This document shows positions 1,356-34,431 of a DNA stretch of 34,431 nucleotides, piece by piece. Every line of letters starts with the position of its first letter. Within the stretch, counting starts at the first letter, position 1. The position numbers were made by a program, and so were the translations under genes. The DNA is from Chthoniobacterales bacterium (GTDB taxonomy: Bacteria > Verrucomicrobiota > Verrucomicrobiia > Chthoniobacterales > Terrimicrobiaceae), in NCBI GenBank assembly GCA_014879575.1, contig JACSRU010000105.1, forward strand, positions 1 to 34,431, given 5' to 3'. The notes under the pieces were generated by a model. The model ran no database searches, was not told where the DNA came from, and saw nothing but the letters and a program-made list of their open reading frames with translations.

Positions 1356-2630
1356 CTACGCCGCCTGCGCGGCTTGCTCACTGGCGGGCCGGTTTGCCGG
1401 GCGGAGCATGAAAAGGAAGTTTCCAAGGAATCCCACGCTTCCGACGATCAGAAAAAGCGTTCCAAGCCCGAGCATTTTCTCAATGCCAAGCCACGCCCCG
1501 GGAATGAGCATCAGGACGCCAATCGCATAGTTGAAGAACGAGGCGAGAAGCACATTCTGCGAAAGTTTAACCATCAGCGGAGCCTCCTCGCCGGAGGCCT
1601 CTCCACGGAGAAGCGAAGAGATCTGGTAAAAGGTCGCCACCATGGCTGGCACACAGACTCCAAGGACAAGGGCCAACAAGGCGGCGGCTTCCGGTTTCAA
1701 GGGAGCCTCCGCCTGGACCTGTCGCGTCCAGACGGCGAACACAAAAAGACCAAGGCAGACCGGAAGCATCCAGAGCGAGGTGTAGAGAATCTTGCTGTCC
1801 CACTCGAGAACCTCCTCGTCACGTCGCTGAAGCATCACCGTGAAACCCGCAAGAAAAACCAATTGCCCCAGCAGATAGACTCCGGCGCAAATGAGGATGA
1901 ACACCGGAGGACCAAATGTGATTGCCGCAAACAACCAGGCCACTCCCGAATTCAGCAGAATAAATGCCAGCCAGGAGAGCGGCAATCCCTCCCCCCGACT
2001 TCCAATGCGCCGGGCCGTGGTCCCCAGAGACACCCCAAAGATCCCATTCAATACCGCACCCGTGAGGCAGAGCATCAGCGTGGCCGGAGCCCAGTCCGTG
2101 CCCTCAAAGAATGGGATCAGGGAGGTTTTCGCAAACGGGATGCCCGCGACGATCATGATTCCCAGCCAGAGCAACGAGGAGACCAGGAAGGCGGACGACA
2201 CGTTCGGTCGGCCTTCGCGCCGGAAGGACGCGGCCAGATTCAGGAGGAATGTCAGCACTCCACAGGCCAAAAGCCCCTGCCCCACAAGGATCGGCGGCTG
2301 GTCTGGTTGGTAGGCCGACAGGATGAGGAGAATCACACCGGCAAGATGGAACACCACATGGAGAAACACCATTTTTGAGCTGAACAGACGCATGCCGGAA
2401 AGTACCGATACCCCCCGATAGACGAGTCCATAGAGGCCGGACAGGGCAAAGCCATAGATGATCAGATACACCCAGGCCGTGCTCTCCGGCGTGATCTGGG
2501 GCTCTGCAAGCAGGTAGGGTTTGAGGGCCAGCCACCCGGTGGCCAGGCAGAGCATGACAAGCGCAGCGATGGAGAAGAGAAGCGGACCTTTGGGAGCGGC
2601 CGCCGGAATGTTTGAGTTGGTGGTTTCCAT
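1356..2630 (-). CDS. 12-span membrane protein linked to the cbb3 oxidase
   Basis: I do not recognise this 424-aa protein as a named family. From the ATG at 2630 it has about 12 hydrophobic segments spread over its whole length: near residues 15-36, 50-70, 84-104, 111-131, 141-164, then seven more to the end. It has almost no soluble domain. Twelve spans is the core topology of haem-copper oxidase subunit I, but the set of conserved haem and copper histidines of that subunit is not present. The only clustered histidines are in FLHVVFH near residue 90. The ATG lies 5 nt after the ccoI stop, making it the last gene of the operon. The call 'oxidase subunit I-like fold without cofactors' is speculation; a transporter or assembly factor is equally possible. 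Confidence 0.7.
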   Translation of the reverse strand: METTNSNIPAAAPKGPLLFSIAALVMLCLATGWLALKPYLLAEPQITPESTAWVYLIIYGFALSGLYGLVYRGVSVLSGMRLFSSKMVFLHVVFHLAGVILLILSAYQPDQPPILVGQGLLACGVLTFLLNLAASFRREGRPNVSSAFLVSSLLWLGIMIVAGIPFAKTSLIPFFEGTDWAPATLMLCLTGAVLNGIFGVSLGTTARRIGSRGEGLPLSWLAFILLNSGVAWLFAAITFGPPVFILICAGVYLLGQLVFLAGFTVMLQRRDEEVLEWDSKILYTSLWMLPVCLGLFVFAVWTRQVQAEAPLKPEAAALLALVLGVCVPAMVATFYQISSLLRGEASGEEAPLMVKLSQNVLLASFFNYAIGVLMLIPGAWLGIEKMLGLGTLFLIVGSVGFLGNFLFMLRPANRPASEQAAQAA

Positions 2631-2635
2631 GAGAT

Positions 2636-4984
2636 TTATCTGGTCGAGTCGTTGGGATTTTGAAAGCCGAAAAGCACGATGCCGATCGACACAAGCGAAC
2701 TGAGGGGCATGATGATCGCGGCGACAAGCGGATTCATGAGTCCGGCAAGTGACGCCGTGACAGCCACGGCGTTGTAGGTGATAGCGAAGAAAAAGACCGC
2801 CCGAGTCACCTGATGATGGCGACACGAAGTGCTGAACAGGGCGGCAAGTCCCCGCAATCCACTTCCCGGCATGTAAAAGTCCGCCTTGTGTTCGAGCAAT
2901 CCCGTATCCACCGAGGGGGTGCCCCGACAAAGAGCCTCATCGAAGGCCAGACTGTCGTTGGCACCATCCCCGATCATGAGCGCATTTCCGGACCAACGGG
3001 CTTTTACGAGCCGGGACTTGTCTTCCGGGGAAAGTCCCCCGAACGCATGACCCGCGCCAATACCAAGGCTGGAAGCCAGGTGCCCCACTCGCACCGGATC
3101 ATCGCCGCTCAAAATAAAAATCTCGCGTCCGCCTTCGCGCAAGGCGGCAAGTTCCTCAGCGGCTCCCGGGCGGATCGCCTCATGAAACGAAAAGGCGGCC
3201 AACTCCCGTCCCTCATGGACAAAGGCGGTCTGCCCGGGACTCCCCCCACCGGCCCAGGAATTCCGGCCCAGACGCCAGAGCCCCTCGGCATCCCGCCATT
3301 CAAGCCCGTAGCCGGTCACCTCACGGACGTCTCCGCCCCCCTCTGCGGGCTCCACGCCGATTGGCAGAAGGGATTCCCGCAGGCAGGCGGCCACAGGGTG
3401 CAGGCTGGACCGCACAAGGCGCAAAAGCACGGCGCGATCTTTCGGGGAAAGATTCCCGAGGGATTCCGGATTTTTTAATGCGAGCGTCTCGAGTGTGATC
3501 GTGCCGGTTTTGTCGAAGAGGATGTTCGTGACATGCCGCAGGCGAGCCCACAGGGAACCCTCCCGGATATAGAGTCCGGATTTCTGGAGCCTTGCGGCCG
3601 CGACGTCATCGAGAAGCGGCAAGGCGACGCCAATCGCGCAGGGGCAGGAGACGACAAGCACCGACACGAGAACCTGCGTCGCCCGGATCCACCCACCCCC
3701 CAAAAGACCCCAGAAAAAAAATCCGATGACGGCCGTCCCAAGCACAACCGACAGGTAGATTGTGATCAATTTTTGCATCGAGGCGTTTCGCCACATCTTC
3801 CCGGACTCGACCTTCAGAAGTGCCTCCAATTTCGAATCCGACCACCGCTCCAGGGCCTCCACCTCCAACTCATCCGCCACCAGACTGCGCGCTCCCGAAG
3901 GCACAAGGCTCCCGCGCAAAAATTCCCGGGGAGCCGGCTCTCCCGTGATCCAGTTCAGAGCAAATAGCGCGCGCTCCGCACGGAGCAGGGAGCGAACCGG
4001 AAGGATTCCCCCCTTCGCAAGCAGGAGACGGTCACCGGGATGCAATTCCCCGACGGCAACCTCCCCGACGCCCCCGGCCTGCACACGCCGGACAGTTCCC
4101 GGGCTCGTCTTCATCGCCAAAAGCCGCCGCCGATTGCCCTCGAGAGCCCGCTCCTGGGTCCAGCGCCCAAGCAGCATCAAAAAGGTGAAAATCGCAATGA
4201 AGTCGAAATAGGCAAAGGAAGGTGCCCGGCTCGCCCAGGCCACACAGGATCCCAGATACGCCACGATCAACCCGAGGGAAATCGGGAGGTCAATAGGAAG
4301 CATCCGGGCCTTGACTCCGGCAATGGCCCTCCGGAAAAAATAACTGCCTCCGAGGAGGAGACTGGCCGTGGCGAGCCCCAGGGCGACCACATCGAAAAGG
4401 TGCGACAGCTCGTCACCGGGATGCAGTCCCAGATACCGCGGAAGCGAGAAGAGCATGGCGTTCAACGCCAGTGCCCCGCAGATCCCGAGCTTGCGCGCAA
4501 GCGGCCGGGTGGAAGGAGCCTGCGCGCTTCCCATCGGTCCCAGCAGGTAGCCAAACTTCCTCACATCCTCCGCATAGGCGGAAAGGTTGCACGGCCCCCT
4601 GCTCCATTCGAGACGCAATGTGCCGGAGGAGGAATTCACCCGGCAGGAAATCGCGCCGGGCTGCTCGAGAAAGACCGTCTCCAGCAGCCAGACGCAACCC
4701 GCACAGGAAATCCCCTGGATGTCCATCGTCGCGAAGGCAGTCGTCCCGGCGTCCGACTCCGCGCGCGCTTGCAGATCGTCCAACCAGGAAAAATCCCGTT
4801 CGTGAAAAACAAAAGTCCCCGCCGGAGACTTCCTTTCGCCGTAGTTATAGAACTCCCCGAACCCGCGCTTGTGGAGGAGGTGATTCACAAACTGGCATCC
4901 TGCACAGCAAAATTCCTTCCGCTGGGGAGTGGGCCGGAATGGGGTTCCACAATGGATGCAGGCGGTTGTGGCGGCAGCGTTCAT
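2636..4984 (-). CDS. ccoI: CcoI/FixI-type copper-translocating P-type ATPase
   Basis: This 782-aa P1B ATPase supplies copper for the CuB site of the cbb3 oxidase during assembly in the inner membrane. An N-terminal cysteine-rich module (C9/C12, then CCAGC at 26-30) is typical of FixI-type pumps. An HMA domain follows with GISCAGC (91-97). The actuator TGEP lies at 347-350, the membrane metal motif SCPCA near 446-450, the phosphorylation motif DKTGT at 491-495, the SLHP motif further on, and the hinge GDGAND near residue 700. Eight membrane spans fit the family. The ATG at 4984 overlaps the stop of the upstream TauE/SafE-like gene (ATGA), which fixes the start. A long open frame upstream in this phase is the shadow of that gene. 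Confidence 0.95.
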   Translation of the reverse strand: MNAAATTACIHCGTPFRPTPQRKEFCCAGCQFVNHLLHKRGFGEFYNYGERKSPAGTFVFHERDFSWLDDLQARAESDAGTTAFATMDIQGISCAGCVWLLETVFLEQPGAISCRVNSSSGTLRLEWSRGPCNLSAYAEDVRKFGYLLGPMGSAQAPSTRPLARKLGICGALALNAMLFSLPRYLGLHPGDELSHLFDVVALGLATASLLLGGSYFFRRAIAGVKARMLPIDLPISLGLIVAYLGSCVAWASRAPSFAYFDFIAIFTFLMLLGRWTQERALEGNRRRLLAMKTSPGTVRRVQAGGVGEVAVGELHPGDRLLLAKGGILPVRSLLRAERALFALNWITGEPAPREFLRGSLVPSGARSLVADELEVEALERWSDSKLEALLKVESGKMWRNASMQKLITIYLSVVLGTAVIGFFFWGLLGGGWIRATQVLVSVLVVSCPCAIGVALPLLDDVAAARLQKSGLYIREGSLWARLRHVTNILFDKTGTITLETLALKNPESLGNLSPKDRAVLLRLVRSSLHPVAACLRESLLPIGVEPAEGGGDVREVTGYGLEWRDAEGLWRLGRNSWAGGGSPGQTAFVHEGRELAAFSFHEAIRPGAAEELAALREGGREIFILSGDDPVRVGHLASSLGIGAGHAFGGLSPEDKSRLVKARWSGNALMIGDGANDSLAFDEALCRGTPSVDTGLLEHKADFYMPGSGLRGLAALFSTSCRHHQVTRAVFFFAITYNAVAVTASLAGLMNPLVAAIIMPLSSLVSIGIVLFGFQNPNDSTR

Positions 4985-7991: not shown

Positions 7992-10343
7992 TCAGTGCGA
8001 CTTGGCTTGTTTCTGATTGGCCGGGGCGGCGGAAATATCCGGGGCGGCGGAGGCCGCCGGGGCTGCGGTGGGGTCGTCGTATTTTCCCAACTGCTGCAGA
8101 TACGCGATCAGGGCGATGATTTCCTTGTCCGGAGAAATCTTGATTCCCCCCGACGCAAGATCCTCCGTTATGCGTTGCCCCTGGTCGATGCACGACTGCC
8201 GGATGTCTGCCGGCGAGCGTGGAGGAAACGGAACCCCATAGCTCGTGAGCACCCGGATCTTCGAGGACAGGGCCGGAATGTCGGTCACCTGGGTGTAGAG
8301 CCACGGGTAATTCGGCATCACGCTGCCGATCGATGTCGAGCGCGGATCCATCATGTGCTGGAAATGCCAGATGTTCGGGTATTTTCCGCCCACACGCTGC
8401 AAGTCGGGCCCCGTGCGCTTCGATCCCCATTGGTAGGGGAAATCATAAACGGATTCGGTGAGACGCCCGCTCTTTCCGTAGCGAAGCACATCCCCCACAA
8501 GGGAGCGAATCATCTGGCTGTGGCAATTGTAGCAGCCTTCGCGCACGTAAATATCCCGTCCGGCCAGTTCGAGGGGCGTGTAAACTTTTTGCAGCGGCGC
8601 ATCGGCTCCGGCCGTCTGCTTGATGAACACGGTCGGGAGGATCTGGATCATTCCGCCCGCCGCAACGGCGAGAAAGGTCAACACCGTAAAGGGCAGCCAG
8701 CTCTCGAGCAACTTGTCATACCACTCGCTCCACTTCTGCCCGGAAACTCCCATGTGGATCATTGCGATCAGGGCGGTTTCAACGAGCAAAACCAGGGAGA
8801 TCGTGCTCAGCATTCCCTGTGCGAACCCCCACCCGGCGCCAAAAATGACCAACAAAAACGAGTAGATGACCGGCGGGTTCAGGAAGCCTCCAAGCAACGT
8901 GAGGCTTTCCTTCGGCGGCTCCTCGGGCACCTGCACTTCGATGGATGCCACGGCCGGGTGTCCCGAGCGGATCGTGCGATAGAGATTGTAGGCCATGAGG
9001 ACCATTCCGACAAGGAAGAGAACCCCTCCCAGGATACGCATGCGCAGCATCGCCTGAGTCGAGTTGACGACTTCCAGGAAGTTCGGATACGCAAGGGCTC
9101 CCTCGGGTGTCACGGCATTGAGCATGAGACCCTGGGTGATTCCGGAGACCCACATCGAGGCGATGTAGAGAAGGATGCCCAGCATCCCGAGCCAGAAATG
9201 GATGTCCGCAAGTTTGGTGGAAAAGAGCTTCGTGTTCCAGAGCCTTGGAGCAAGCCAATAGAACATGCCCGCCGCCATGAAGCTGTTCCATCCGAGCGTG
9301 CCCCCGTGAACATGCCCGACGGTCCAGTCGCTGTAATGCGAAACGGCATTCACCGAGCGGATCGCCATGAGCGGTCCCTCGAATGTGGCCATTCCATAGA
9401 AGGTCACCCCGGCGGCAAAAAACTTGAGCACCGGATCCGTGCGCACCTTGTTCCAGGCACCCCGCAGGGTCAGCAGGCCATTGAGCATCCCTCCCCAGGA
9501 CGGCGCCCAGAGCATCACACTGAAAATCATTCCCAGCGTCTGCAACCACTCCGGCAGGGCGGTGTTCAGCAAATGGTGCGGACCCGCCCAGATATACACG
9601 AAGACAAGCGACCAAAAGTGAACGATCGAGAGCCGGTAGCTGTAAACCGGACGTTCGGCAGCCTTCGGCATGTAATAATACATGATGCCCAGGATGGGTG
9701 TGGTCAGGAAGAAGGCCACCGCGTTGTGCCCATACCACCACTGGACGAGCGCATCCTGGACCCCGCCGAAAATCGGATACGAGTGCAACAGACTCGTCGG
9801 GATCTGCAGGTGGTTCGTGATGTAGAGCATCGCCACCGTGATGATCGTGGCGATGTAGAACCAAATCGCCACATACAACGATTTCTCGTTCCGGATCGCC
9901 AGCGTCCAGAAAAAGTTGATGGCAAAAACCACCCAGATGAAAACGACCCCAATGTTCAGCGGCCAGATCAGCTCGGCATATTCCTTGCCCCGCGACAGTC
10001 CCAGCGGAAGGGTGATCGCGGCGCCCACAATGATCAACTGCCAGCCCCAAAAATGGAGGTGCGACAGAAAATCCGACGCGAGGCGCGTCCGCACGAGCCG
10101 TTGGGTCGAATGATACACGCCGCAAAAAATCATGTTGCCGACAAACGCAAAAATTGCCGCATTTGTGTGCAGCGGACGCAGCCGCCCAAAGGTCAGCCAC
10201 GAAGTGTCGAAATTCAGCACGTGAAAAGCGAGCTGTGAGGCGATCAACACCCCGATCAACATGGCCACCAAGGCCCAAAACACCGAGGCAATCAAAAATT
10301 GCCGGACGACCAAATCGTTATACTCAATTGTTTTTGTCTTCAT
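7992..10343 (-). CDS. ccoNO: Fused CcoN-CcoO: catalytic and mono-haem subunits of cbb3 oxidase
   Basis: One 783-aa polypeptide combines both core subunits. Residues 1 to about 470 are CcoN: His59 (RPLHT) and His346 are the likely low-spin haem b ligands; His206 (YGHN), His256 and His257 (GPHH) the CuB ligands; His344 a haem b3 ligand; and Tyr250 sits where the cross-linked tyrosine of cbb3 oxidases lies. About 12 spans precede a linker near residues 465-490. The rest is CcoO: a hydrophobic segment at about 559-580 and the haem c motif CYNCH (604-608), ending in an Ala/Pro-rich tail. The enzyme reduces oxygen to water with high affinity and pumps protons. The start overlaps ccoS by 20 nt. No stop or frameshift separates the halves. 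Confidence 0.96.
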   Translation of the reverse strand: MKTKTIEYNDLVVRQFLIASVFWALVAMLIGVLIASQLAFHVLNFDTSWLTFGRLRPLHTNAAIFAFVGNMIFCGVYHSTQRLVRTRLASDFLSHLHFWGWQLIIVGAAITLPLGLSRGKEYAELIWPLNIGVVFIWVVFAINFFWTLAIRNEKSLYVAIWFYIATIITVAMLYITNHLQIPTSLLHSYPIFGGVQDALVQWWYGHNAVAFFLTTPILGIMYYYMPKAAERPVYSYRLSIVHFWSLVFVYIWAGPHHLLNTALPEWLQTLGMIFSVMLWAPSWGGMLNGLLTLRGAWNKVRTDPVLKFFAAGVTFYGMATFEGPLMAIRSVNAVSHYSDWTVGHVHGGTLGWNSFMAAGMFYWLAPRLWNTKLFSTKLADIHFWLGMLGILLYIASMWVSGITQGLMLNAVTPEGALAYPNFLEVVNSTQAMLRMRILGGVLFLVGMVLMAYNLYRTIRSGHPAVASIEVQVPEEPPKESLTLLGGFLNPPVIYSFLLVIFGAGWGFAQGMLSTISLVLLVETALIAMIHMGVSGQKWSEWYDKLLESWLPFTVLTFLAVAAGGMIQILPTVFIKQTAGADAPLQKVYTPLELAGRDIYVREGCYNCHSQMIRSLVGDVLRYGKSGRLTESVYDFPYQWGSKRTGPDLQRVGGKYPNIWHFQHMMDPRSTSIGSVMPNYPWLYTQVTDIPALSSKIRVLTSYGVPFPPRSPADIRQSCIDQGQRITEDLASGGIKISPDKEIIALIAYLQQLGKYDDPTAAPAASAAPDISAAPANQKQAKSH

Positions 10344-13046: not shown

Positions 13047-14879
13047 CTATTCGGACTCCGCGCAGGCCAGCCATGCGGCGTTGGCCTTTTCCAAGGCTTC
13101 CGCGACACCGGTCAGCTGACGGTTGATTTCCATTGCCCGGGAGGGATCCTCGTAGGTTTCGGGATTTTCGAGTTTTTCAGTGAGTTCCGCCTGCCGGGCT
13201 TCGAGCGTGGAGATTTCCGCCTCCAGTTCGGCCACCCGTTTTTCCCGTTCCCGCTTGATCCGGTTGGCCGCCTGCCGGGCTTCTGATTCCGCCCGTCTTT
13301 GCGCCCGGACTTCCCTGAGTCCCGGCCCGGCAGTCACACGGGGGGTCGGCGGTGCCTCGGGTTGGTGGTTGCCGAGGGCGGCAATCGTTCCCGCCCGCGC
13401 ACCCGCGGCACGGGTTTTGTCGAGGTAGTAGGCATAGTCCCCGGCATACGGGGTAAGGTGCCCGCGCTGCACATGGATGACCGATGTCGCGAGGGCGCGG
13501 ATAAAATGCACATCGTGACTGACAAAAACGATGGTTCCCTCATACGGGCCCAGGGCCCGGATCACGGCATCAATACTGGGCATGTCGAGATGGGTGGTGG
13601 GCTCGTCCAGAAGAAGCAGATTCGGCGGATCCAGCAGAAGTTTGACCAAGGCGAGTCGGCTCTTCTCCCCTCCGCTCAACACGGAAACCGGTTTGAAAAC
13701 ATCGTCCCCGCGAAAGAGAAAGGAGCCCAACAAATTTCGAATCGCCTGCTCGGGAACCGGACGGGGCAGGCTTTGCACCTCCGCAAGAACCGTCTTCTTC
13801 AAATCCAACACCTCCGAGCGGTGCTGGGCAAAATACCCGACACTGACATTGTGCCCCGGCGTGCGCTCGCCGGCTTCCAATGGCAACTCCCCGGCAAGAA
13901 TTTTCAGCAGCGTGGATTTTCCCGCGCCATTCGGACCAACCAGCACGATCCGCTGGCCCCGTTCGACCCGGATGTGGAGGTTCTCGTAAACCACATGCTC
14001 CCCATACGCCTGGCGGACTCCTTCCAGGCTCATCACCCGCTGACCACTGCGCACGGGTTGCGGAAACTTGAAATGCACGGTCGGCTCGTCGGACTCCGGT
14101 GCCTCGATCCGCTTCATTCTCGCAAGTTGCTTGATGCGATCCTGTGCCTGCGCCGCCTTGCTGGCCTTGGCCCGGAAGCGATTGATGAAATCCTGGAGGT
14201 GTTCGATTTCCTTCTGCTGGTTTTTGTAGGCGGCGAGGTGTTGTTCCTCTCGGGCTTTTTTCATCTCCACGAAGGCGTCGTAATTCCCCTGGTAGCGGAG
14301 AAGCTTGCGATGCCGGATCTCAACGATCCCGCGGCAGAGGACGTTCAGGAATTCGCGATCATGCGAAATGGCAAGGATGGCACCCGGGTAGCCGAGCAGA
14401 TGGTTCTGAAACCACCCGAGCGTCTCGAGGTCGAGGTGGTTCGTCGGCTCATCAAGCAAAAGCAAATCCGGTTGCTCGACCAGCAGACGGGCCAGATGCG
14501 CGCGCATCACCCAGCCCCCGCTCAGGGCATTGACCGGACGGCCGAAATCCTGCTCCCGAAAGGCGAGCCCCGCCAGAATCCGCTTCGCGGCCGCTTCCGT
14601 GCGTCCATCGGCCTCCTCACCCGCCGCCAGTTCCATGACCGTGCCCTCGGTGGAGGCGGCGGTTTCCTGCGGAAGATACCCGCAGCGCACCCCTCGCTGG
14701 AGACTGACCGTCCCCTCGTCGGGCTCCTCCTGCCGCAGGAGCAGGGAAAAAAGCGTTGTCTTGCCGGCTCCGTTCGGTCCGATCAGACCGATGCGGTCGC
14801 CGGGATTCACCTGCAACGAAGCCTCCTCGAAGAGGATGCGCCCGCCGAAGGATTTGCTGACTTGGGAAACCGTAAGCAT
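13047..14879 (-). CDS. ABC-F family ATPase
   Basis: This 610-aa soluble protein has two ABC domains in tandem and no membrane spans. The first has Walker A GPNGAGKTT (34-42), the signature LSGGW, and Walker B LLLLDEPTNHLD. The linker contains a charged helix (KKAREEQHLAAYKNQQKEIEHLQ) and the RAKASKAAQAQDRIKQL segment typical of ABC-F P-site tRNA-interaction motifs. The second has GPNGAGKST, LSGGEKSRLAL and LLLLDEPTTHLD. The last 70 residues form a predicted coiled coil. ABC-F proteins act on the ribosome, relieving stalls or giving antibiotic resistance; the arrangement resembles YheS/Uup-type housekeeping members. The signature of domain one (LSGGW) departs from the usual LSGGQ/E. No Shine-Dalgarno is seen before the ATG. 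Confidence 0.93.
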   Translation of the reverse strand: MLTVSQVSKSFGGRILFEEASLQVNPGDRIGLIGPNGAGKTTLFSLLLRQEEPDEGTVSLQRGVRCGYLPQETAASTEGTVMELAAGEEADGRTEAAAKRILAGLAFREQDFGRPVNALSGGWVMRAHLARLLVEQPDLLLLDEPTNHLDLETLGWFQNHLLGYPGAILAISHDREFLNVLCRGIVEIRHRKLLRYQGNYDAFVEMKKAREEQHLAAYKNQQKEIEHLQDFINRFRAKASKAAQAQDRIKQLARMKRIEAPESDEPTVHFKFPQPVRSGQRVMSLEGVRQAYGEHVVYENLHIRVERGQRIVLVGPNGAGKSTLLKILAGELPLEAGERTPGHNVSVGYFAQHRSEVLDLKKTVLAEVQSLPRPVPEQAIRNLLGSFLFRGDDVFKPVSVLSGGEKSRLALVKLLLDPPNLLLLDEPTTHLDMPSIDAVIRALGPYEGTIVFVSHDVHFIRALATSVIHVQRGHLTPYAGDYAYYLDKTRAAGARAGTIAALGNHQPEAPPTPRVTAGPGLREVRAQRRAESEARQAANRIKREREKRVAELEAEISTLEARQAELTEKLENPETYEDPSRAMEINRQLTGVAEALEKANAAWLACAESE

Positions 14880-14973
14880 ACAAAAAGGGGGACAGCGTCG
14901 TGCAGGGAAGCCGTCCCGGCAAGCAGGAATCCCAACGGGATTTTGGAATTGCGGACGGGTTTTACGGCAACGA

Positions 14974-14994
14974 CTTTCGGAAAACCGCCGAAAG
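14974..14994. repeat. Intergenic inverted repeat before the ABC-F gene
   Basis: CTTTCGG (14974-14980) pairs with CCGAAAG (14988-14994) around a 7-nt loop in the 140-bp gap between the cyclase-like gene and the ABC-F gene. There is no T-tract on the minus strand, so it is not a clear terminator. It could be an operator or an attenuator-like leader hairpin. Confidence 0.4.
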
Positions 14995-15019
14995 CACAAA
15001 AACCGCCTGGGCGTCCTCC

Positions 15020-16288
15020 TTAAATGGCTGCGCTGAAGAGGAGCATCTGGTCCTTGTTGACCTCCTCCTCCCCCCGTCGGCTGCGCTCGACGCGACGGAT
15101 GTAGTAATCGAGGACATGGTCCGGAATTCCGGTGATGCGGGCCTTTGAAAATTCCTCAATCGCCTTGTCCCACTGCCGCTCCCGGTAGTGGAGGACGCCG
15201 GTCCAGTAGTGGTTGCGGCTGCGTTCGCGCTCGGGCGAGAGACCGTGCTTGCGGGTGAGGACCTCGTAAAGCTCCACCCGGCGACGCTCTCCGACGGATT
15301 TTACCACTTCGATCGGACGGACCTCCAACGTCTCGGCAGCAGGCTCATGAGTTTCCGGTCCGATAAGGATTCGGCACCCGTAGGTGCCACACGCCGAACA
15401 CAGGCGGCGCGCGAATTCCACGGCCGGCCCGGCGACGCTGAAGCTCCCCAGCCGGGATCCACCATACGCCGCCGCGATCATCTCGCCGGAATTGATGCCG
15501 ATCCGGAAATCAAGGCGCCGTTGCCAGGTCGCATCGCATTCCCGGTTGAGGTCATCCAACCGGGCGGCAAGGTCCAGTGCCGCCCGGCAGGCTTTTTCCG
15601 CGTGTTTGCTGTCGGCAAGCGGCGCACCGAACACCACGCGCACGCTCTCCCCGCCGCATTCGTCAAGGTAGCCCCCGACTTCGACGAGGTAGTCCGACGC
15701 GGTCTGCAAATAAAGGTTTGTCATCGCCGCATAGTCCTCCGGCTTGAGGAGTTCCATCAGCTCGGAGTGATTATGCACCGCCACGACGAGAACCGTTCCC
15801 TCCTGGAGTGCGCCCGGAAAATCCAACGGCACATCGGAATTGACAAGTTCGTTGAAGGCTCCCCGGGAAAGCCTCTGCCCGAACAGACGTTCCATGACTT
15901 TTTTTCGTGAACCGCTGCCTGTGCGCCCGTAAGCAAGTCCGATCAGGAAGCTTGTTAAAATGGCGAAGATCGAGGGGAAGGGCGAAAAGAAAACATTGTA
16001 AAGCGCCAGGACCATGGAGCCTGTCAGGAGCAAAATCATTCCTCCAAGAGCCACGATCGATTTCAAAACCGGACGCGTGATGTCCACGGTTGTCCAGGCG
16101 GAGGCAAACGCAAGGAAGGCGATGAGCATCACATGAATCCCCTGCTGGGTCACCATCGGTTTCTTGATTTTGTAGGTCTGCAAGAGGACGAGATCGAGGG
16201 TGTTCGTCAGCCAGCCCGTGGCATACAAAACAAGGATGAGGACGGAAGAAATCGTCCCGATCAAAATGGTGGCTTTAAGATATCTCAT
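15020..16288 (-). CDS. Membrane-anchored class III cyclase homologue, probably catalytically dead
   Basis: This 422-aa protein has three or four membrane helices in residues 5-120, then a cyclase homology domain (about 160-345) and a C-terminal TPR-like helix pair (YRERQWDKAIEEFSKARITG). The fold markers are present (GGYLDECGGESVRVVFGAP, RIGINSGEM, SVAGPAVEFARRL), but catalytic positions are changed. The first metal Asp (in the usual FxDI) aligns with Ala170. The second (usual GD) is Glu214. The Asp of the DYT motif is Ser282 and the transition-state Asn (VN) is Glu291, while the Arg (295) is kept. It is therefore probably a nucleotide sensor or protein scaffold, not an active cyclase. The ATG overlaps the stop of the ClpX-like gene (ATGA), so the two are co-translated. 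Confidence 0.85.
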   Translation of the reverse strand: MRYLKATILIGTISSVLILVLYATGWLTNTLDLVLLQTYKIKKPMVTQQGIHVMLIAFLAFASAWTTVDITRPVLKSIVALGGMILLLTGSMVLALYNVFFSPFPSIFAILTSFLIGLAYGRTGSGSRKKVMERLFGQRLSRGAFNELVNSDVPLDFPGALQEGTVLVVAVHNHSELMELLKPEDYAAMTNLYLQTASDYLVEVGGYLDECGGESVRVVFGAPLADSKHAEKACRAALDLAARLDDLNRECDATWQRRLDFRIGINSGEMIAAAYGGSRLGSFSVAGPAVEFARRLCSACGTYGCRILIGPETHEPAAETLEVRPIEVVKSVGERRRVELYEVLTRKHGLSPERERSRNHYWTGVLHYRERQWDKAIEEFSKARITGIPDHVLDYYIRRVERSRRGEEEVNKDQMLLFSAAI

Positions 16289-27334: not shown

Positions 27335-27835
<501 letters not shown>

Positions 27836-27858: not shown

Positions 27859-28905
27859 TCAACTCTTTCGCGGAATGTGGATGCCTGCCTTCGCTCCTTG
27901 AACGCGAATCTCGTCCTTTGTCCACGAAAGTTGAATTGATTCCGGCCAAACGTCCTCGTGCTTTGCCATCTCGGTCAACGGCGGACGAATGTAGCGTTCG
28001 AGAAAAACAGCCATTGTCGTGCCTGCTTTGGAGTCCATGTGCGCCCATGCATTCACGCCAACGTAATGCTTGCCGCTGTTTGCTTTGAACGCCGCAATCA
28101 GTTCGTCGAGGCGTGGTGATGGAGTTGGATCAAGAACGATGAGCACTGGCGTCAGCCCGGCGGCGCGGGCTTCGCGCGGGAAAGAAAGTTCTTCGCCGAA
28201 GCGACCTTGGCCGCTGGCAGCAATGGTGACGCGCAGTTTGAATTCGTAGGCGAGTTGGCTCTCGCCGTCGTAGCAATCAATCTGGCGGCCTTCACCAGTC
28301 GATTCGCCCTGTTCGTTCAGGCGTTTGACGGGTGAGTTCTTCGAGCCGACGGCTTCGCCGCCGAGACAACTCGCCAGCACTGGCTCGAACAGATAACCAG
28401 TTTCTTGCGCCGCACGATTGTCCACGTCGAAAATCCATTTGCGCCAGATGAGCCATGAGGCGAGCAAGCCATCATCCACGCCACCAAATTCCAGCAGGCT
28501 GCGCGGGCCGACTTGGTTCATCGTCGGCTTCGGCTGGCAGGACAGAATGCGTTGATACTTGCACCGCCGTTTGTGCAGCGTGGCGAGGTTCTCGAAATAA
28601 AGTCGGAAGTCGGGTTCATGTGCGACGCAGGCAGCAAGGCTTTCCACAAGCCCGGCGGCAGAAGGACAGCCATCTTGTGGAGTTTGAAACCACGCCAGCG
28701 GAAGACGGTAATAGTCGTCGCTCGGCGGCGGAGACGAAAGCGCGGGCAGCTTCGAGACTGCTGCGTCAAGTCCAAGGTCGCGGCAGCATTGCGACAGCAG
28801 ACAGAAAAGCTCGTTCTCTGAAAGCGTCACGCGGTCGTCGCCATTGCCGAGGATGCGCGCGGCGCTGAACGACTTCTTGATCTCGGCGGGTATGGGCATG
28901 GTCAT
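27859..28905 (-). CDS. Type II restriction endonuclease, ApaLI-like, PD-(D/E)xK
   Basis: This 348-aa protein carries a PD-(D/E)xK nuclease core: Glu174 in GYLFEPVLAS, Asp210 in GRQIDCYDG, and Glu221-x-Lys223 in YEFKLRV. It is followed by TIAASGQGRFGEEL and PVLIVLDPTPSPRL, which I associate with ApaLI-family endonucleases. The N-terminal 130 residues have no motif I recognise. The ATG at 28905 overlaps the methyltransferase stop (ATGA), so endonuclease translation depends on prior translation of the methyltransferase, a common order that protects the host. A second ATG two codons later is possible. The recognition site is not predictable with confidence. The nuclease motif and pairing make the restriction role likely; the subfamily is less certain. 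Confidence 0.82.
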   Translation of the reverse strand: MTMPIPAEIKKSFSAARILGNGDDRVTLSENELFCLLSQCCRDLGLDAAVSKLPALSSPPPSDDYYRLPLAWFQTPQDGCPSAAGLVESLAACVAHEPDFRLYFENLATLHKRRCKYQRILSCQPKPTMNQVGPRSLLEFGGVDDGLLASWLIWRKWIFDVDNRAAQETGYLFEPVLASCLGGEAVGSKNSPVKRLNEQGESTGEGRQIDCYDGESQLAYEFKLRVTIAASGQGRFGEELSFPREARAAGLTPVLIVLDPTPSPRLDELIAAFKANSGKHYVGVNAWAHMDSKAGTTMAVFLERYIRPPLTEMAKHEDVWPESIQLSWTKDEIRVQGAKAGIHIPRKS

Positions 28906-30230
28906 TTCCTCGCTCTCTCCAGCAACACCAGTTGCTCGTCGTTCTTGCCGACGAGTTCGTTTAGCAAGGATTCCGTTTGCGCCAGCGCCGGACTCATCCC
29001 TTCCGAGCGAGTCAGACAAAATCGAAGCGCCGAATGGCCGTTGCCGTTGTATCGCACGCCAAACCCAAACTCCCGCGCGATGTGCTCGCCGATGGTTCGC
29101 GCCAGCATCGGCGGAATGGCGTTGCCGGTTTGCTGGATGCGGCTCGCCGCGCTGCCGGTGAACTCGAACGAATCCGGGAACGTCTGCAACCGCGCACACT
29201 CCCGCAACGTGAGCAGCCGGTCTTCCGTCGGATGCACAAACTCCCGCGTCGCCGCGCTGGTGATGGTCAGGCTCGGCTCGTCGGCAAACAGCCGCTTCAA
29301 GCCGGACGGCGCTCCGCCGCGCTTCTCCACCGGCGTCCCATCCATCACGCGCCGGAAAGCACGGCGGCGAAACGAGTCATGCTGCAAATGATCCGGCAAA
29401 TCCTTCATCGTCTGGCCCGGCCGCAATCCCCGCACGCGCTCAAGCTGAATCTCCGACAGCGCCACCGCGTAGTGATCCGTCACGCTCCCGACTTCGCCGC
29501 GCAGATACGCCTGCAATTCATTCTGCGGCGGCTGGCGATACGGCAATGATTCGCCCGCCTCTTGAACTGCGGTTGGCAAGTCCCCGACAGCACACGCGAA
29601 CGTCACTTCTCCCTTGCGAAAGATGCTGCCGGAAAAGCGCGTCACCGGTTGGGGAAACACGAAGTCATGGCCGATACAGTTACCGACAATGAGCACGCGC
29701 TTGCGCCGCTGCGGAATGCTGTAGCCCTGCGCATAAACCTTCTCAAGATTCAGAGAATAACCCGCTTCAAGAAAAGCGGCCACGGCATCGCGAACGTGCG
29801 AACCGCCGTCGTTGGTCAGCAGTCCCTCGACATTCTCCATCACGAACCACTTTGGGCGGATGCCTTCGAGCAGCCGGACGTAATGCGCGAGCAGCGAATT
29901 GCGCGGGTCATCGCCCGACTTCGCGCCCGCGCTGCTGAAACCCTGACACGGCGGACCGCCCAGCAGAATGTCGAGTTCTCCGCGCTTCAAGCCAATGCGT
30001 TCAAGAATGTCAGCGGCGCTCAAATCACGGATGTCCGCCGCCACACACGGAGTTTGCGGGAAGTTGCGCCGATACGACTCCACCGCGTCAGCATCAATGT
30101 CCGTGGCAAACCGAACGTCGTAGCCCGCCTGCCCAAACCCGAGCGAACACCCGCCCGCGCCCGCGAACAGGCTGATGGCGGTGGGCCTGTGCCGGCTGGC
30201 GGATGCTGAATTGTTTTGAGATTCGCTCAC
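28902..30230 (-). CDS. C5 cytosine-specific DNA methyltransferase
   Basis: From the GTG at 30230 this is a 442-aa enzyme. The C5 methyltransferase motifs appear in order: motif I AISLFAGAGGCSLGF, motif IV GGPPCQGFSSAG with the catalytic Cys, motif VI ENVEGL, motif VIII QRRKRVLIVG, and motif X QQTGNAIPPMLARTIGEHI near the end. The target recognition domain lies between VIII and IX (about 200-310). A C-terminal tail of about 65 residues follows motif X. It should protect sites cut by the downstream endonuclease, whose ATG overlaps its stop. The same frame extends up to an ATG at 30308, but that part overlaps the upstream stub and has no methyltransferase similarity. The stub ends 4 nt before the GTG, favouring re-initiation there. 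Confidence 0.9.
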   Translation of the reverse strand: MSESQNNSASASRHRPTAISLFAGAGGCSLGFGQAGYDVRFATDIDADAVESYRRNFPQTPCVAADIRDLSAADILERIGLKRGELDILLGGPPCQGFSSAGAKSGDDPRNSLLAHYVRLLEGIRPKWFVMENVEGLLTNDGGSHVRDAVAAFLEAGYSLNLEKVYAQGYSIPQRRKRVLIVGNCIGHDFVFPQPVTRFSGSIFRKGEVTFACAVGDLPTAVQEAGESLPYRQPPQNELQAYLRGEVGSVTDHYAVALSEIQLERVRGLRPGQTMKDLPDHLQHDSFRRRAFRRVMDGTPVEKRGGAPSGLKRLFADEPSLTITSAATREFVHPTEDRLLTLRECARLQTFPDSFEFTGSAASRIQQTGNAIPPMLARTIGEHIAREFGFGVRYNGNGHSALRFCLTRSEGMSPALAQTESLLNELVGKNDEQLVLLERARK

Positions 30231-30234
30231 GGTA

Positions 30235-30336
30235 TCAAACGGCGACGAACTCCGGCGTGAACTGGCCGCGCCAGCCGAAGATGTTGCTCCGCGTCTTGTT
30301 GACGACATCCAGCTTTTGGCGGTCGAGGGTTTTCAT
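30235..30336 (-). pseudogene. 33-codon N-terminal stub of a different DNA methyltransferase
   Basis: An ATG at 30336 overlapping the protease stop (ATGA) opens a 33-codon frame containing VNKTRSNIFGWRGQFTPEFV, then stops at 30235. This motif is the typical start of adenine/N4-type 'site-specific DNA methyltransferase' proteins (DNA_methylase N4/N6) found in defence islands; the AdoMet and catalytic motifs that should follow are absent. The stub is cut off exactly where the cytosine methyltransferase gene begins. It reads as a scar where one methyltransferase module was replaced by another. It may still be translated and couple the protease to the methyltransferase. Confidence 0.7.
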
Positions 30337-32912
30337 GGCACAGGAGTGCCCACGGCGACAGGCGGATGAATTCGGGCTGCAATCTCCTCGTAAACTGGAA
30401 CGCGCAATTCTTCCGCTACTTCAATCGAGACAACCAAACCGTAGCGAATTGTGCCTTCGAGTGCGGTGGCGTCAGCGCGGCAATTCACGCGAATCACCAT
30501 CGTTGCGTCTTCGGCGAACGCCGCTGCGCGCTCGCCTTCAAAGATTTCGTGCTGAACTGTGCCGTTTCTCGCCGAACGCCATTCGGCATCTTCGCGTTTC
30601 GTCGCGAGTTTCTGGTTTTCGATGTCAAACCATAGCGCCGCACCGCGGTAATTCCGATGCCTCGGGTGAATCGGGGAGAGCCAGGCCAAGGTTACGACAA
30701 TCCTCCGAAGCCCACGAACGCCGCTCAGACTCGGCGGCAGCGGAATGCGATACTCATGTGCTCCATCGCTGGCGAGCGTCCCGCAGCCGAGCATCGTCGC
30801 TCGATGGTCGGCACCGACCAGCGATTCAACCGGCTCCACAAAACCGAAGCCGAGGAACCTTGCAGCAATCCGCTTGAACTTGTCCTCCCGCATGGCGGCG
30901 GGCTTCAGCACTCCTCTCAAATGGTCGTAAGCCGCACCCCATGCGGCTGTGTGAATCAACATTGCCTTCAACAACACCGCAGCAAACTCGTCGGTGAGCC
31001 TGTCGCCGCCCGGTTCGGCACGCAATGAGACCAACTGTTCGTAGAGGAAAGCCGCTGAACGTGTCGCGAGCGCCGTCGCGTTACTTGTTCCTCGGGTGTG
31101 CTTTTCTCTGTCCACCTGCCCCGGCGCGGTGCTTGGAGCGGCTGCCAAAATGCCCGGCGCGACAGTAGCGGGTGCAATGTCGAGTGTGGCATTGGCATGG
31201 CTGTTCCCAAGGCGTTCTGAATAGAACTGCCTGCCACCCGGAAGGAGAATGTCCGGCTTGGTGGAATTGCGGAATCCGCAGCCGAGGCCGCTGACAGGAC
31301 TTGGGAGCGGCTCGGCGACCAGCGGGTTCAGTCGGTGCGGAAGATTCAAGACTGCACCAAAATCATGATGCCATGCGCCGACCGTCACCGCGTTGATGGA
31401 ATCAGCCGGGGCGAGAATCCTTCGCAACCTCAAGTCGCGTTCGAGGGCTTTCAAAACCTGTGCTTCACGATCCTGCGGAGTCAGGGCAGCGAAGTCAGCG
31501 TGGGGGACATCCAATTTCAGCGCACCTGCGTGGTTTCCTGCGCTGACGCAAAACAGCACGTTGTATTTCGCAGCCAGCCAATCGAGCAGCCTGCCCCATG
31601 CGCTGACGGCTGAGTGAAACTGCTGGAGAGGATCGCCGATGGAGAAATTGATGACGCGAACACTTGGCGCGACTGGCGGCGTTGCACCATCCGTCTCGAA
31701 TAGTCGCCTTACAGCCCGATGCGTCAGGTCGAGAGGATTGATTCCATGAGGAACCCGCTCATTGCGTGCACTGTTCCATAGCTGAGGGTCAGGTCGGAGA
31801 ATCGGGCGCTGATAAAGCGGGCGCGGCAACGCAGCACGCGGCGCGTTCAAGTCACCATGCACGATGATTGAAGCCATCGTCGTCCCGTGTTCGCGTTCGC
31901 TCGCACTGTAGGCGGATGCGTAGCCGTCCGGGTCATCTACCCGCAAACGACCGACGAGCCGCGCGTGGTTTTCTAGCGGGAGTCCATCAAGCAAAGCAAC
32001 TGTCGGCTCGCCACTGGGTATCCCCGCAGGCGGTGCGGCCACGGGCGCTTGCAAATCCGGTTCCCCAAGTCCCGGCATCACTGACTGGCCCGAAGGACGG
32101 AAAAACATGACCGCACTTTCTCCCAGCAACTCGACCTCTTGGCGGTTCACGAGGCGGCGAACTTCGGATGCGGGCATAGTCACCACTGCTGCGTGGTAGC
32201 AAATGGCGTCCAGTTCGCAGACAGAGGCGACCTGCCCTCGAAGTCTAGTGACAATCTGACGAATTCGGTCAACTGACGCTGCTCGCTGCTGTGCTGTCTG
32301 CCGGAACCACAACTCCACCTCGAACGGAATGATGGTGTCGTCGCCTGTCGTTGCCGCATCCTTCCAATACTCAATGACACCGGTTTCCAGGAGGCGATCT
32401 TCGGGAGACCAACGGCGAACATCGCGGAGGTGCTGGAACAAATCGAAAAAAGGAGAAAGGCCGCGTGCTGCGGTTCTGCCCGATTGGAACGCCAGCCAAA
32501 GACTCAGTAATTGCTGGAGGGCCTGTTGGTTGGTCATCACGAGGAAGACTCGTCCAGATAGGTGCGAATCTTCGCGCGCCTCGTTGTAGAAGTCGTTGTC
32601 GGGGGCAATGTCCTCGACATCCCATTCAGCGAGAAAGTCGAGGCCGGGGACGAGTCTTGCAGCATTGAGGAAGTTGGCAACGGAGCCAACGGTCTCAAAT
32701 ACGATTACTTCCTCGGGAACCTGCCCGGCGGCTGATGCCCTGAATTCAACTGCCCTCTGCTCAAAATACGCCTTGAGCGTCTCGAACTTCGGCCCAATCC
32801 GTTGCCCCTGCCGCGCCCTGCTCGGAAGGTGAGGCGATCCGCCACCACCGGGCGGTCGCCCGCGAGACGCGGCGGCTGGCGATGGCAATACAATCAGCGG
32901 GCGGTCCGGCAT
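30333..32912 (-). CDS. ietS: S8 subtilisin-like protease, IetS-like anti-phage component
   Basis: This 859-aa protein has a unique N-terminal region (about 1-300) and a subtilase domain with a complete triad. Asp309 lies in TVALLDG, His342 in EHGTTMASI, Ser610 in TRGTSNATALA, and the oxyanion Asn460 in CVSAGN. The N-terminal blocks EEVIVFETVGSV and VMTNQQALQQLLSLW match S8 proteases that are encoded with an AAA ATPase. IetAS pairs of this kind were described in plasmid exclusion and phage defence. There is no signal peptide, so it acts in the cytoplasm. The ATG is 3 nt after the ATPase stop, with GGAGGAAGG inside the ATPase 3' end. The protease probably kills or disables the infected cell when the ATPase senses a trigger (inference). 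Confidence 0.85.
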   Translation of the reverse strand: MPDRPLIVLPSPAAASRGRPPGGGGSPHLPSRARQGQRIGPKFETLKAYFEQRAVEFRASAAGQVPEEVIVFETVGSVANFLNAARLVPGLDFLAEWDVEDIAPDNDFYNEAREDSHLSGRVFLVMTNQQALQQLLSLWLAFQSGRTAARGLSPFFDLFQHLRDVRRWSPEDRLLETGVIEYWKDAATTGDDTIIPFEVELWFRQTAQQRAASVDRIRQIVTRLRGQVASVCELDAICYHAAVVTMPASEVRRLVNRQEVELLGESAVMFFRPSGQSVMPGLGEPDLQAPVAAPPAGIPSGEPTVALLDGLPLENHARLVGRLRVDDPDGYASAYSASEREHGTTMASIIVHGDLNAPRAALPRPLYQRPILRPDPQLWNSARNERVPHGINPLDLTHRAVRRLFETDGATPPVAPSVRVINFSIGDPLQQFHSAVSAWGRLLDWLAAKYNVLFCVSAGNHAGALKLDVPHADFAALTPQDREAQVLKALERDLRLRRILAPADSINAVTVGAWHHDFGAVLNLPHRLNPLVAEPLPSPVSGLGCGFRNSTKPDILLPGGRQFYSERLGNSHANATLDIAPATVAPGILAAAPSTAPGQVDREKHTRGTSNATALATRSAAFLYEQLVSLRAEPGGDRLTDEFAAVLLKAMLIHTAAWGAAYDHLRGVLKPAAMREDKFKRIAARFLGFGFVEPVESLVGADHRATMLGCGTLASDGAHEYRIPLPPSLSGVRGLRRIVVTLAWLSPIHPRHRNYRGAALWFDIENQKLATKREDAEWRSARNGTVQHEIFEGERAAAFAEDATMVIRVNCRADATALEGTIRYGLVVSIEVAEELRVPVYEEIAARIHPPVAVGTPVP

Positions 32913-32915
32913 GGT

Positions 32916-33887
32916 TTAGCGGGCCTTCCTCCGCGTTCGCAGCTTCCACTGCTCAATTCTCTCGCCGAGGATAGACGCCGCCTCCTTCTGTCCTTGAGAG
33001 AGAATCGTGCGGCGAACGACATCCAGAGCGAAGTCCTCCATCTCAGCAAAGCTCTCAAACTTCACCCGCTGGGCGATGCTCTTTGGAGACAGGGTGGTAG
33101 GTAATTTCCATCGCTCGGCTGCCAACCGGAACCACTCGGCAACTTGAGCCGACGTCGGCGCTGGCAATTCGAGCCGAAGTTGGAAACGACGCCAAACCGC
33201 GCGGTCGAGCAACTCTTGGTGGTTGGTTGCCGCGACTACCACGACGTAGCTCGGAAGGCGGTCGATTTGAAGCAGGAGTGAACTCACCACCCGCTTGATT
33301 TCGCCGGTGTCGTGAACATCGCCGCGCTCCTTGCCCAGCGTGTCGAACTCATCGAAAAACAAAACGCATGGGCGAGTGGTGACATGCTCAAAGAGCTTGT
33401 GGAGGCGACCGGCTGTCTCACCAAGGAAGCTTCCGACGACACCTTCATAGCGCACGGATAACAGCGTCACACCAAGCGACTGCGCCAAGGTTTCAGCGAG
33501 GCATGTTTTTCCGTTGCCGGGAGGCCCAATCAACAAGACGCGGTGCCGGGGTTCGACACTGTGAGAGCGGAGCAAATCGGCGCGGTGTTGCTCCTCAACA
33601 ATCTCCTGGCAAGCCTGCCGAACCGCAGAGGGCAAAACGAGGTCGGACATGCTCCTTTGAGGGATTGTCTCATGTAACAGGGCTTGATGTGTGCCGTTGG
33701 ACAAAAGCGGCTGCGAAGTGGCGGTCTTCCCGTTCTTTCGCAGTGTGTCTTCCAACTGGTCGGCCAAAACGTGATGCTGCTTCCCGCGCTCCTCCGCGAT
33801 AATCGCGTCGACAGTGCGATGGAACAGGCTCCGGTCTCCTTGGATACCGGCCTTCACTAGACCCAGCAGTAAGTCTGAACGTGCCAT
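32916..33887 (-). CDS. ietA: AAA ATPase paired with S8 protease, IetA-like
   Basis: This 323-aa single-domain AAA+ ATPase has Walker A GPPGNGKT (121-128), Walker B CVLFFDEFD with Asp169/Glu170, a sensor-like VVVAATNHQEL segment and an arginine-finger candidate in DRAVWRRF. The N-terminal 100 residues are helical and may sense a partner or trigger. The C-terminal lid is small. It is directly followed by the S8 protease gene, the arrangement of IetAS systems, in which the ATPase is thought to control the protease. The ATG at 33887 lies 12 nt after the thiC stop with only a poor ribosome site, so translation may depend on thiC. The motif set is also shared with other small AAA ATPases, so the name rests on the pairing. 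Confidence 0.85.
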   Translation of the reverse strand: MARSDLLLGLVKAGIQGDRSLFHRTVDAIIAEERGKQHHVLADQLEDTLRKNGKTATSQPLLSNGTHQALLHETIPQRSMSDLVLPSAVRQACQEIVEEQHRADLLRSHSVEPRHRVLLIGPPGNGKTCLAETLAQSLGVTLLSVRYEGVVGSFLGETAGRLHKLFEHVTTRPCVLFFDEFDTLGKERGDVHDTGEIKRVVSSLLLQIDRLPSYVVVVAATNHQELLDRAVWRRFQLRLELPAPTSAQVAEWFRLAAERWKLPTTLSPKSIAQRVKFESFAEMEDFALDVVRRTILSQGQKEAASILGERIEQWKLRTRRKAR

Positions 33888-33899
33888 CGCCGGAAAAGC

Positions 33900-34431
<532 letters not shown>

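Follow-up and report, generated by a model that had tools for sequence, protein, structure and literature searches.

Does a protease-based defence pair act together with the restriction-modification (RM) genes that follow it in the same gene run, or do the two only share expression and transfer? The question is raised by five minus-strand genes, in the order IetA, IetS, a short stub, a C5-cytosine DNA methyltransferase and a nuclease, at positions 27859-33887 of a 34,431-nt stretch of DNA from a Chthoniobacterales bacterium (the whole stretch is referred to here as the window). Embedding of one defence in another is a known theme. PrrC is embedded in EcoprrI, a type IC RM system, and is activated upon EcoprrI inhibition (PMC12707154); DarTG2 lies between hsdS and hsdR in the RRDM island, Septu lies in Hma ('guilt-by-embedding'), and the hsdS-hsdR slot is suggested to be, possibly, a hotspot of recombination (PMC12255303). 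Extra effectors also occur within BREX core loci, and the survey that reports them catalogues nucleases, its main text containing no subtilisin, serine protease or IetA term (PMC12839542). The mechanism of IetAS itself is stated to be unknown (PMC11878078). The open literature that we searched gave no account of IetAS being part of an RM or BREX operon, but an earlier listing is possible.

Results

A tightly packed run of five genes

All five open reading frames of the original prediction were recovered as one compact minus-strand run: an IetA-like AAA ATPase of 323 aa (32916..33887), an IetS-like S8 serine protease of 859 aa (30333..32912), a 33-codon stub (30235..30336), the C5 methyltransferase (28902..30230) and a predicted restriction endonuclease of 348 aa (27859..28905). 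IetA and IetS are separated by 3 nt, IetS and the stub overlap by 4 nt, the stub ends 4 nt before the methyltransferase (GTG start at 30230, with an in-frame ATG at 30308), and the methyltransferase and nuclease frames overlap by 4 nt. Of the predicted spacing (4-nt overlaps and gaps of up to 12 nt), the overlaps and gaps of 3-4 nt hold inside the block; the 12-nt gap is actually upstream of it, between the end of a thiC 3' part and IetA. The block holds one promoter-like site, no more than expected by chance, and we infer co-transcription of the five genes from their tight spacing. Since IetAS is found without RM genes and the RM pair without IetAS (see below), what meets in the composite operon is two distinct modules, IetAS and type II RM.

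The protease module

The two upstream genes form an IetAS-like pair, as predicted; IetAS, an AAA ATPase with an S8 protease, is linked to phage resistance and plasmid stability. IetA matches the PADLOC IetA model (6.8e-146) and PF00004 (8.3e-30) and carries the Walker A motif GPPGNGKT; it directly precedes IetS, the same gene order as in IetAS, and IetS matches the PADLOC IetS model (E=0, 1039 bits) and PF00082 (5.1e-17). The catalytic triad, predicted to be intact, is so: D309, H342 and S610, together with the oxyanion residue N460, are invariant in an alignment of 19 homologues. The pair thus shares gene order, PADLOC families, protease triad and Walker motifs with IetAS, but differs in being divergent and co-operonic with RM genes. 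Its scores miss by far the NCBI equivalog cut-offs for characterised IteA and IteS (224.6 versus 510 and 62.6 versus 900 bits), which is why we call it IetAS-like; judged by these scores, it is a divergent branch and not a characterised equivalog.

Its closest relative, locus L003, encodes an IetS 91% identical to that of the window, and dN/dS values of 0.04-0.09 across IetA and IetS in this comparison (0.04 for IetA) show both genes, at the sequence level, to be under purifying selection. The predicted structure of IetS (pLDDT 35) is too low in confidence for its 300-residue N-terminal region to be read. Neither the IetS profile nor that of the nuclease matched the sequences of solved structures, and a search of viral contigs found no IetS homologue.

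The restriction-modification module

The C5 methyltransferase was identified as predicted (PF00145, 3.8e-65; PADLOC type II methyltransferase, 3.9e-106), and its pairing with the nuclease as a type II RM system is borne out by six other loci with the same two genes in the same order, three in Verrucomicrobiota genomes (L049-L051) and three in viral contigs (L052-L054). These relatives are 41-56% identical, and their methyltransferase and nuclease frames overlap by 4-11 nt, except in L051, where 3 nt separate them; the surveyed stretches of the six loci yielded no IetAS homologue.

The nuclease is assigned from this pairing and from the residues D210, E221 and K223, whose spacing, D210-x10-E221-x-K223, is invariant in both nuclease alignments. 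Its predicted fold (pLDDT 74) is nearest to EcoO109I and PspGI at Z 6.3, which is below the level safe alone (Foldseek E 0.046), and other PD-(D/E)xK enzymes are also among its best fold matches. The PD-(D/E)xK endonuclease of the original prediction hence agrees with the catalytic pattern and with best fold matches that are restriction enzymes, and the fold model makes this type likely, not proven, because the fold-alignment score is modest. No match to the nuclease was found among Pfam (up to E=10), PADLOC or NCBIfam models; as no curated restriction-enzyme family model was matched, its designation as ApaLI-like is unsupported. The module resembles known type II systems with a C5 methyltransferase in its overlapping, recurrent gene pair, but differs in a nuclease family outside these three collections and in its placement behind IetAS.

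A methyltransferase remnant behind IetS

The stub, MKTLDRQKLDVVNKTRSNIFGWRGQFTPEFVAV, shares 14 of 29 residues with the N-terminal end of a methyltransferase that bears a DPFLGSGT motif, is encoded in IMG/VR contig L042 (pairwise E 3e-10) and itself matches type II methyltransferase models; the stub stops just upstream of the position of that motif. It was correctly predicted to derive from a methyltransferase, and by this similarity it is the start of an amino-type (N4/N6) enzyme different from the C5 enzyme. That the stub might be part of the C5 enzyme is ruled out by the same match.

The same DNA follows IetS in locus L004, whose IetS is 80% identical to that of the window (alignment score 91, versus a shuffle maximum of 47). 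There it is partly frame-shifted and reads as a 43-codon frame with a 4-nt overlap with the start of the next gene, an Eco57I-like N6 methyltransferase, which is followed by an AccI-type nuclease (PF09545, 7e-38). A degenerate pattern of the stub DNA retrieved nothing but the window from Verrucomicrobiota genomes, and L042 from viral contigs; tblastn of plasmids and phages with the stub gave nothing useful. Because the window and L004 carry the same remnant before two different RM cassettes, alignment of the two loci shows that the cassette behind IetAS was exchanged, with ~31 first codons of an earlier methyltransferase left as an in-frame bridge. The parsimonious history would place IetAS with an amino methyltransferase first and the replacement later. 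We further infer that the stub can serve as a bridge for translation between IetS and the C5 methyltransferase, given its 4-nt overlap with the IetS stop and the 4 nt that separate its own end from the next start. The stub illustrates how one RM cassette can take the place of another behind a fixed module without the reading frames becoming unlinked.

L003 has IetAS with neither RM genes nor stub. In L032 the first 26 residues of the ORF after IetS (3777-4220, minus strand) resemble the N-terminus of a BREX-3 helicase (15/26, E 2e-7) and the ORF continues as a Fic-like C-terminal domain; this may possibly be a second stub, left by partner loss.

thiC pieces at the edges of the block

The block is flanked by pieces of the host gene thiC, both on the minus strand. 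At its left edge lies a thiC 3' part (33900..34431; PF01964, 1.6e-61), 93% identical to ThiC of a genome of the same family, and at its right edge a decayed fragment (27489..27778) that matches ThiC in tblastn at aa 404-452 (1.4e-12) and aa 507-522 (1.2e-5), its ORF scoring 1.4e-8 against PF01964. L004 has a thiC 3'-end remnant before IetA (2392-2619) and a weaker one after its RM cassette (about 9212-9360), in L003 a 42-bp stretch from the end of thiC precedes IetA (1374-1414), and in host relatives thiC is followed by other genes. The block seems to have travelled with thiC pieces at its edges, and recombination at thiC may be how it moves. Beyond the thiC fragment in the window (about 27345-27480, minus strand) the translation resembles, by eye, the C-terminal end of a REP-associated (IS200-like) transposase.

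IetAS in and beside RM and BREX operons

Loci were gathered by IetS similarity alone, so that RM context was not selected for; IetS was found in 3 of 388 Verrucomicrobiota genomes and in 10 of 395 from the phylum to which the L005 genome belongs, two classes were searched as well, and neighbouring genes were identified by model matches. Among chromosomal and MAG loci whose flanks could be read (L035 stops at a contig edge), IetAS lay in or adjoining RM or BREX genes in 12 of 15, or 11 of 14 if the close relatives L036 and L037 are counted once, in a sample that is small and whose loci are not all independent. It occupies the interval between PglXI and BrxHII in four BREX-3 loci (L033, L034, L036, L037) and follows BrxL in a BREX-1 locus (L038). 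Type I operons read HsdM-DUF-HsdS-IetA-IetS-HsdR in L039 and HsdM-HsdS-IetA-IetS-PtuA-PtuB-HsdR in L041, and in L010 IetAS is followed, 254 nt on, by HsdM..HsdR. The context is type III in L005 and L040 and type II in the window and L004; IetAS stands alone in L003, L009 and L032. None of 10 plasmid IetAS loci had RM genes in the operon; in one of them a 'restriction endonuclease' lies unlinked on the opposite strand, at a distance of about 3 kb.

Overlapping frames are frequent at these loci. On either flank of IetAS in BREX-3 (PglXI/IetA/IetS/7 nt/BrxHII) the frames overlap or come close to abutting, and in type I they abut (HsdS/5/IetA/3/IetS/1/HsdR, in nt). On the IetS tree the embedded state needs six changes, at least four of them forced by supported branches, and the sisters L038 and L041 have different partners, BREX-1 and type I respectively. 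The predicted gene order, with IetAS, C5 methyltransferase and restriction endonuclease in exact succession, was found once, in the window, whereas within this branch of IetS an association of the broader kind is common. The idea that the association is more than coincidence is supported by the repeated occurrence of IetAS within RM operons of types I, II and III and within BREX operons.

Other genes were observed in these neighbourhoods. The type I operon of L041 (431-12482) has two defence pairs embedded in tandem in its hsdS-hsdR interval, IetAS followed by PtuAB (Septu). In L005 the type III mod gene is separated from IetA (1957-3258) by genes for a 131-aa protein like those of 23S rRNA intervening sequences and a Bro-N-like protein (both by eye), and in L039 a 398-aa gene, DUF1016-like by eye (13829-15025, minus strand), has 4-nt overlaps with hsdM and hsdS.

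Discussion

The reading we prefer, and to which we give an even chance, is that of a composite, two-module defence operon in which IetAS forms a second, partner-independent layer, at the protein level, beside type II RM. From what is known of the two families, the RM pair would act first, cutting unmethylated phage DNA, and IetAS would act at the protein level, with the IetS protease restrained or activated by the IetA ATPase and probably shutting down infected cells once the DNA-level defence is overcome. IetAS would probably be triggered by a general signal of phage or damage, or by an anti-restriction factor of the phage, and not by one RM protein, because the partners (types I-III, BREX-1 and BREX-3) share no common subunit; partner exchange between unrelated RM and BREX systems in sister IetS lineages likewise argues against fixed contact with one RM subunit. 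Against this two-layer reading stand the 10 plasmid loci without RM genes, the single occurrence of the exact order and the lack of RM genes in L003, which, with 91% identity over IetS, indicates that IetAS does not require RM.

Co-inheritance without interaction between IetAS and RM is a serious rival, possible though short of probable in our estimation: two independent defences or addiction modules would have been brought into one transcription unit by hot-spot recombination, with shared expression and shared transfer as their sole link. Both modules do occur alone (IetAS in L003, L009 and plasmids, RM in L049-L054), the RM cassette is freely swapped, the thiC pieces flanking the block in the window and L004 are as expected of a passenger unit, and the same hsdS-hsdR position, where recombination may have a hotspot, also houses DarTG2 and other pairs (PMC12255303). 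What hot-spot insertion explains poorly is in-operon embedding in at least five RM/BREX backbones with frames overlapping or abutting.

Direct coupling of the two modules could take either of two forms. IetAS might regulate the restriction enzyme, using ATP-driven proteolysis to remove the nuclease or hold it in check until methylation is in place, much as ClpXP degrades HsdR in type IA and IB systems for restriction alleviation (PMC12707154). An AAA ATPase with a protease does adjoin the nucleases of many systems here, but no nuclease subunit is common to the partners (BREX-1, BREX-3, types I-III), sister IetS proteins adjoin different systems and IetAS often occurs without any nuclease, so that we regard such regulation as unlikely. 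We think it more improbable still that IetS is a guard, triggered by directly sensing methylation loss or inhibition of the partner RM enzyme in the way that PrrC responds to EcoprrI inhibition from within its type IC locus (PMC12707154); IetAS occupies comparable positions, but would need to recognise unrelated partners, and L003, the closest relative of the window pair, has no RM partner.

The preferred two-layer reading places IetAS beside embedded second-layer defences of the PrrC and DarTG2 type: IetAS is in or next to another defence's operon in the 12 of 15 loci counted above, and in the window it comes ahead of the RM genes in one and the same run. Like PrrC, it would be a second-layer toxic gene embedded in an RM operon (PMC12707154), but PrrC, whose trigger is known, is a nuclease that acts on tRNA, and IetS is a protease with no known trigger. 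With DarTG2 and Septu it shares the form of a two-gene module inside an RM operon, and in L039 and L041 the very hsdS-hsdR slot (PMC12255303); it is nonetheless another module, spread over types I, II and III, BREX-1 and BREX-3. The extra effectors inside BREX core loci are a further parallel, those catalogued in the text of that survey being nucleases whereas IetS is a protease (PMC12839542). The interest of IetAS lies chiefly in its recurrence across five defence types and in the stub as evidence of cassette exchange.

More tentatively, and with less than even confidence, we propose that this IetAS branch serves methylation-based immunity as a partner-independent backup, which operons of type I, II and III RM, BREX-1 and BREX-3 have acquired repeatedly. 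On replacement of the partner cassette, the short N-terminal stub of the old gene would be kept as a translational bridge from IetS to the new one. The presence of the same protease pair in operons of five methylation-based defences suggests a common trigger, and the natural pairs and their partner-swapped relatives allow testing of whether proteolysis backs up restriction.
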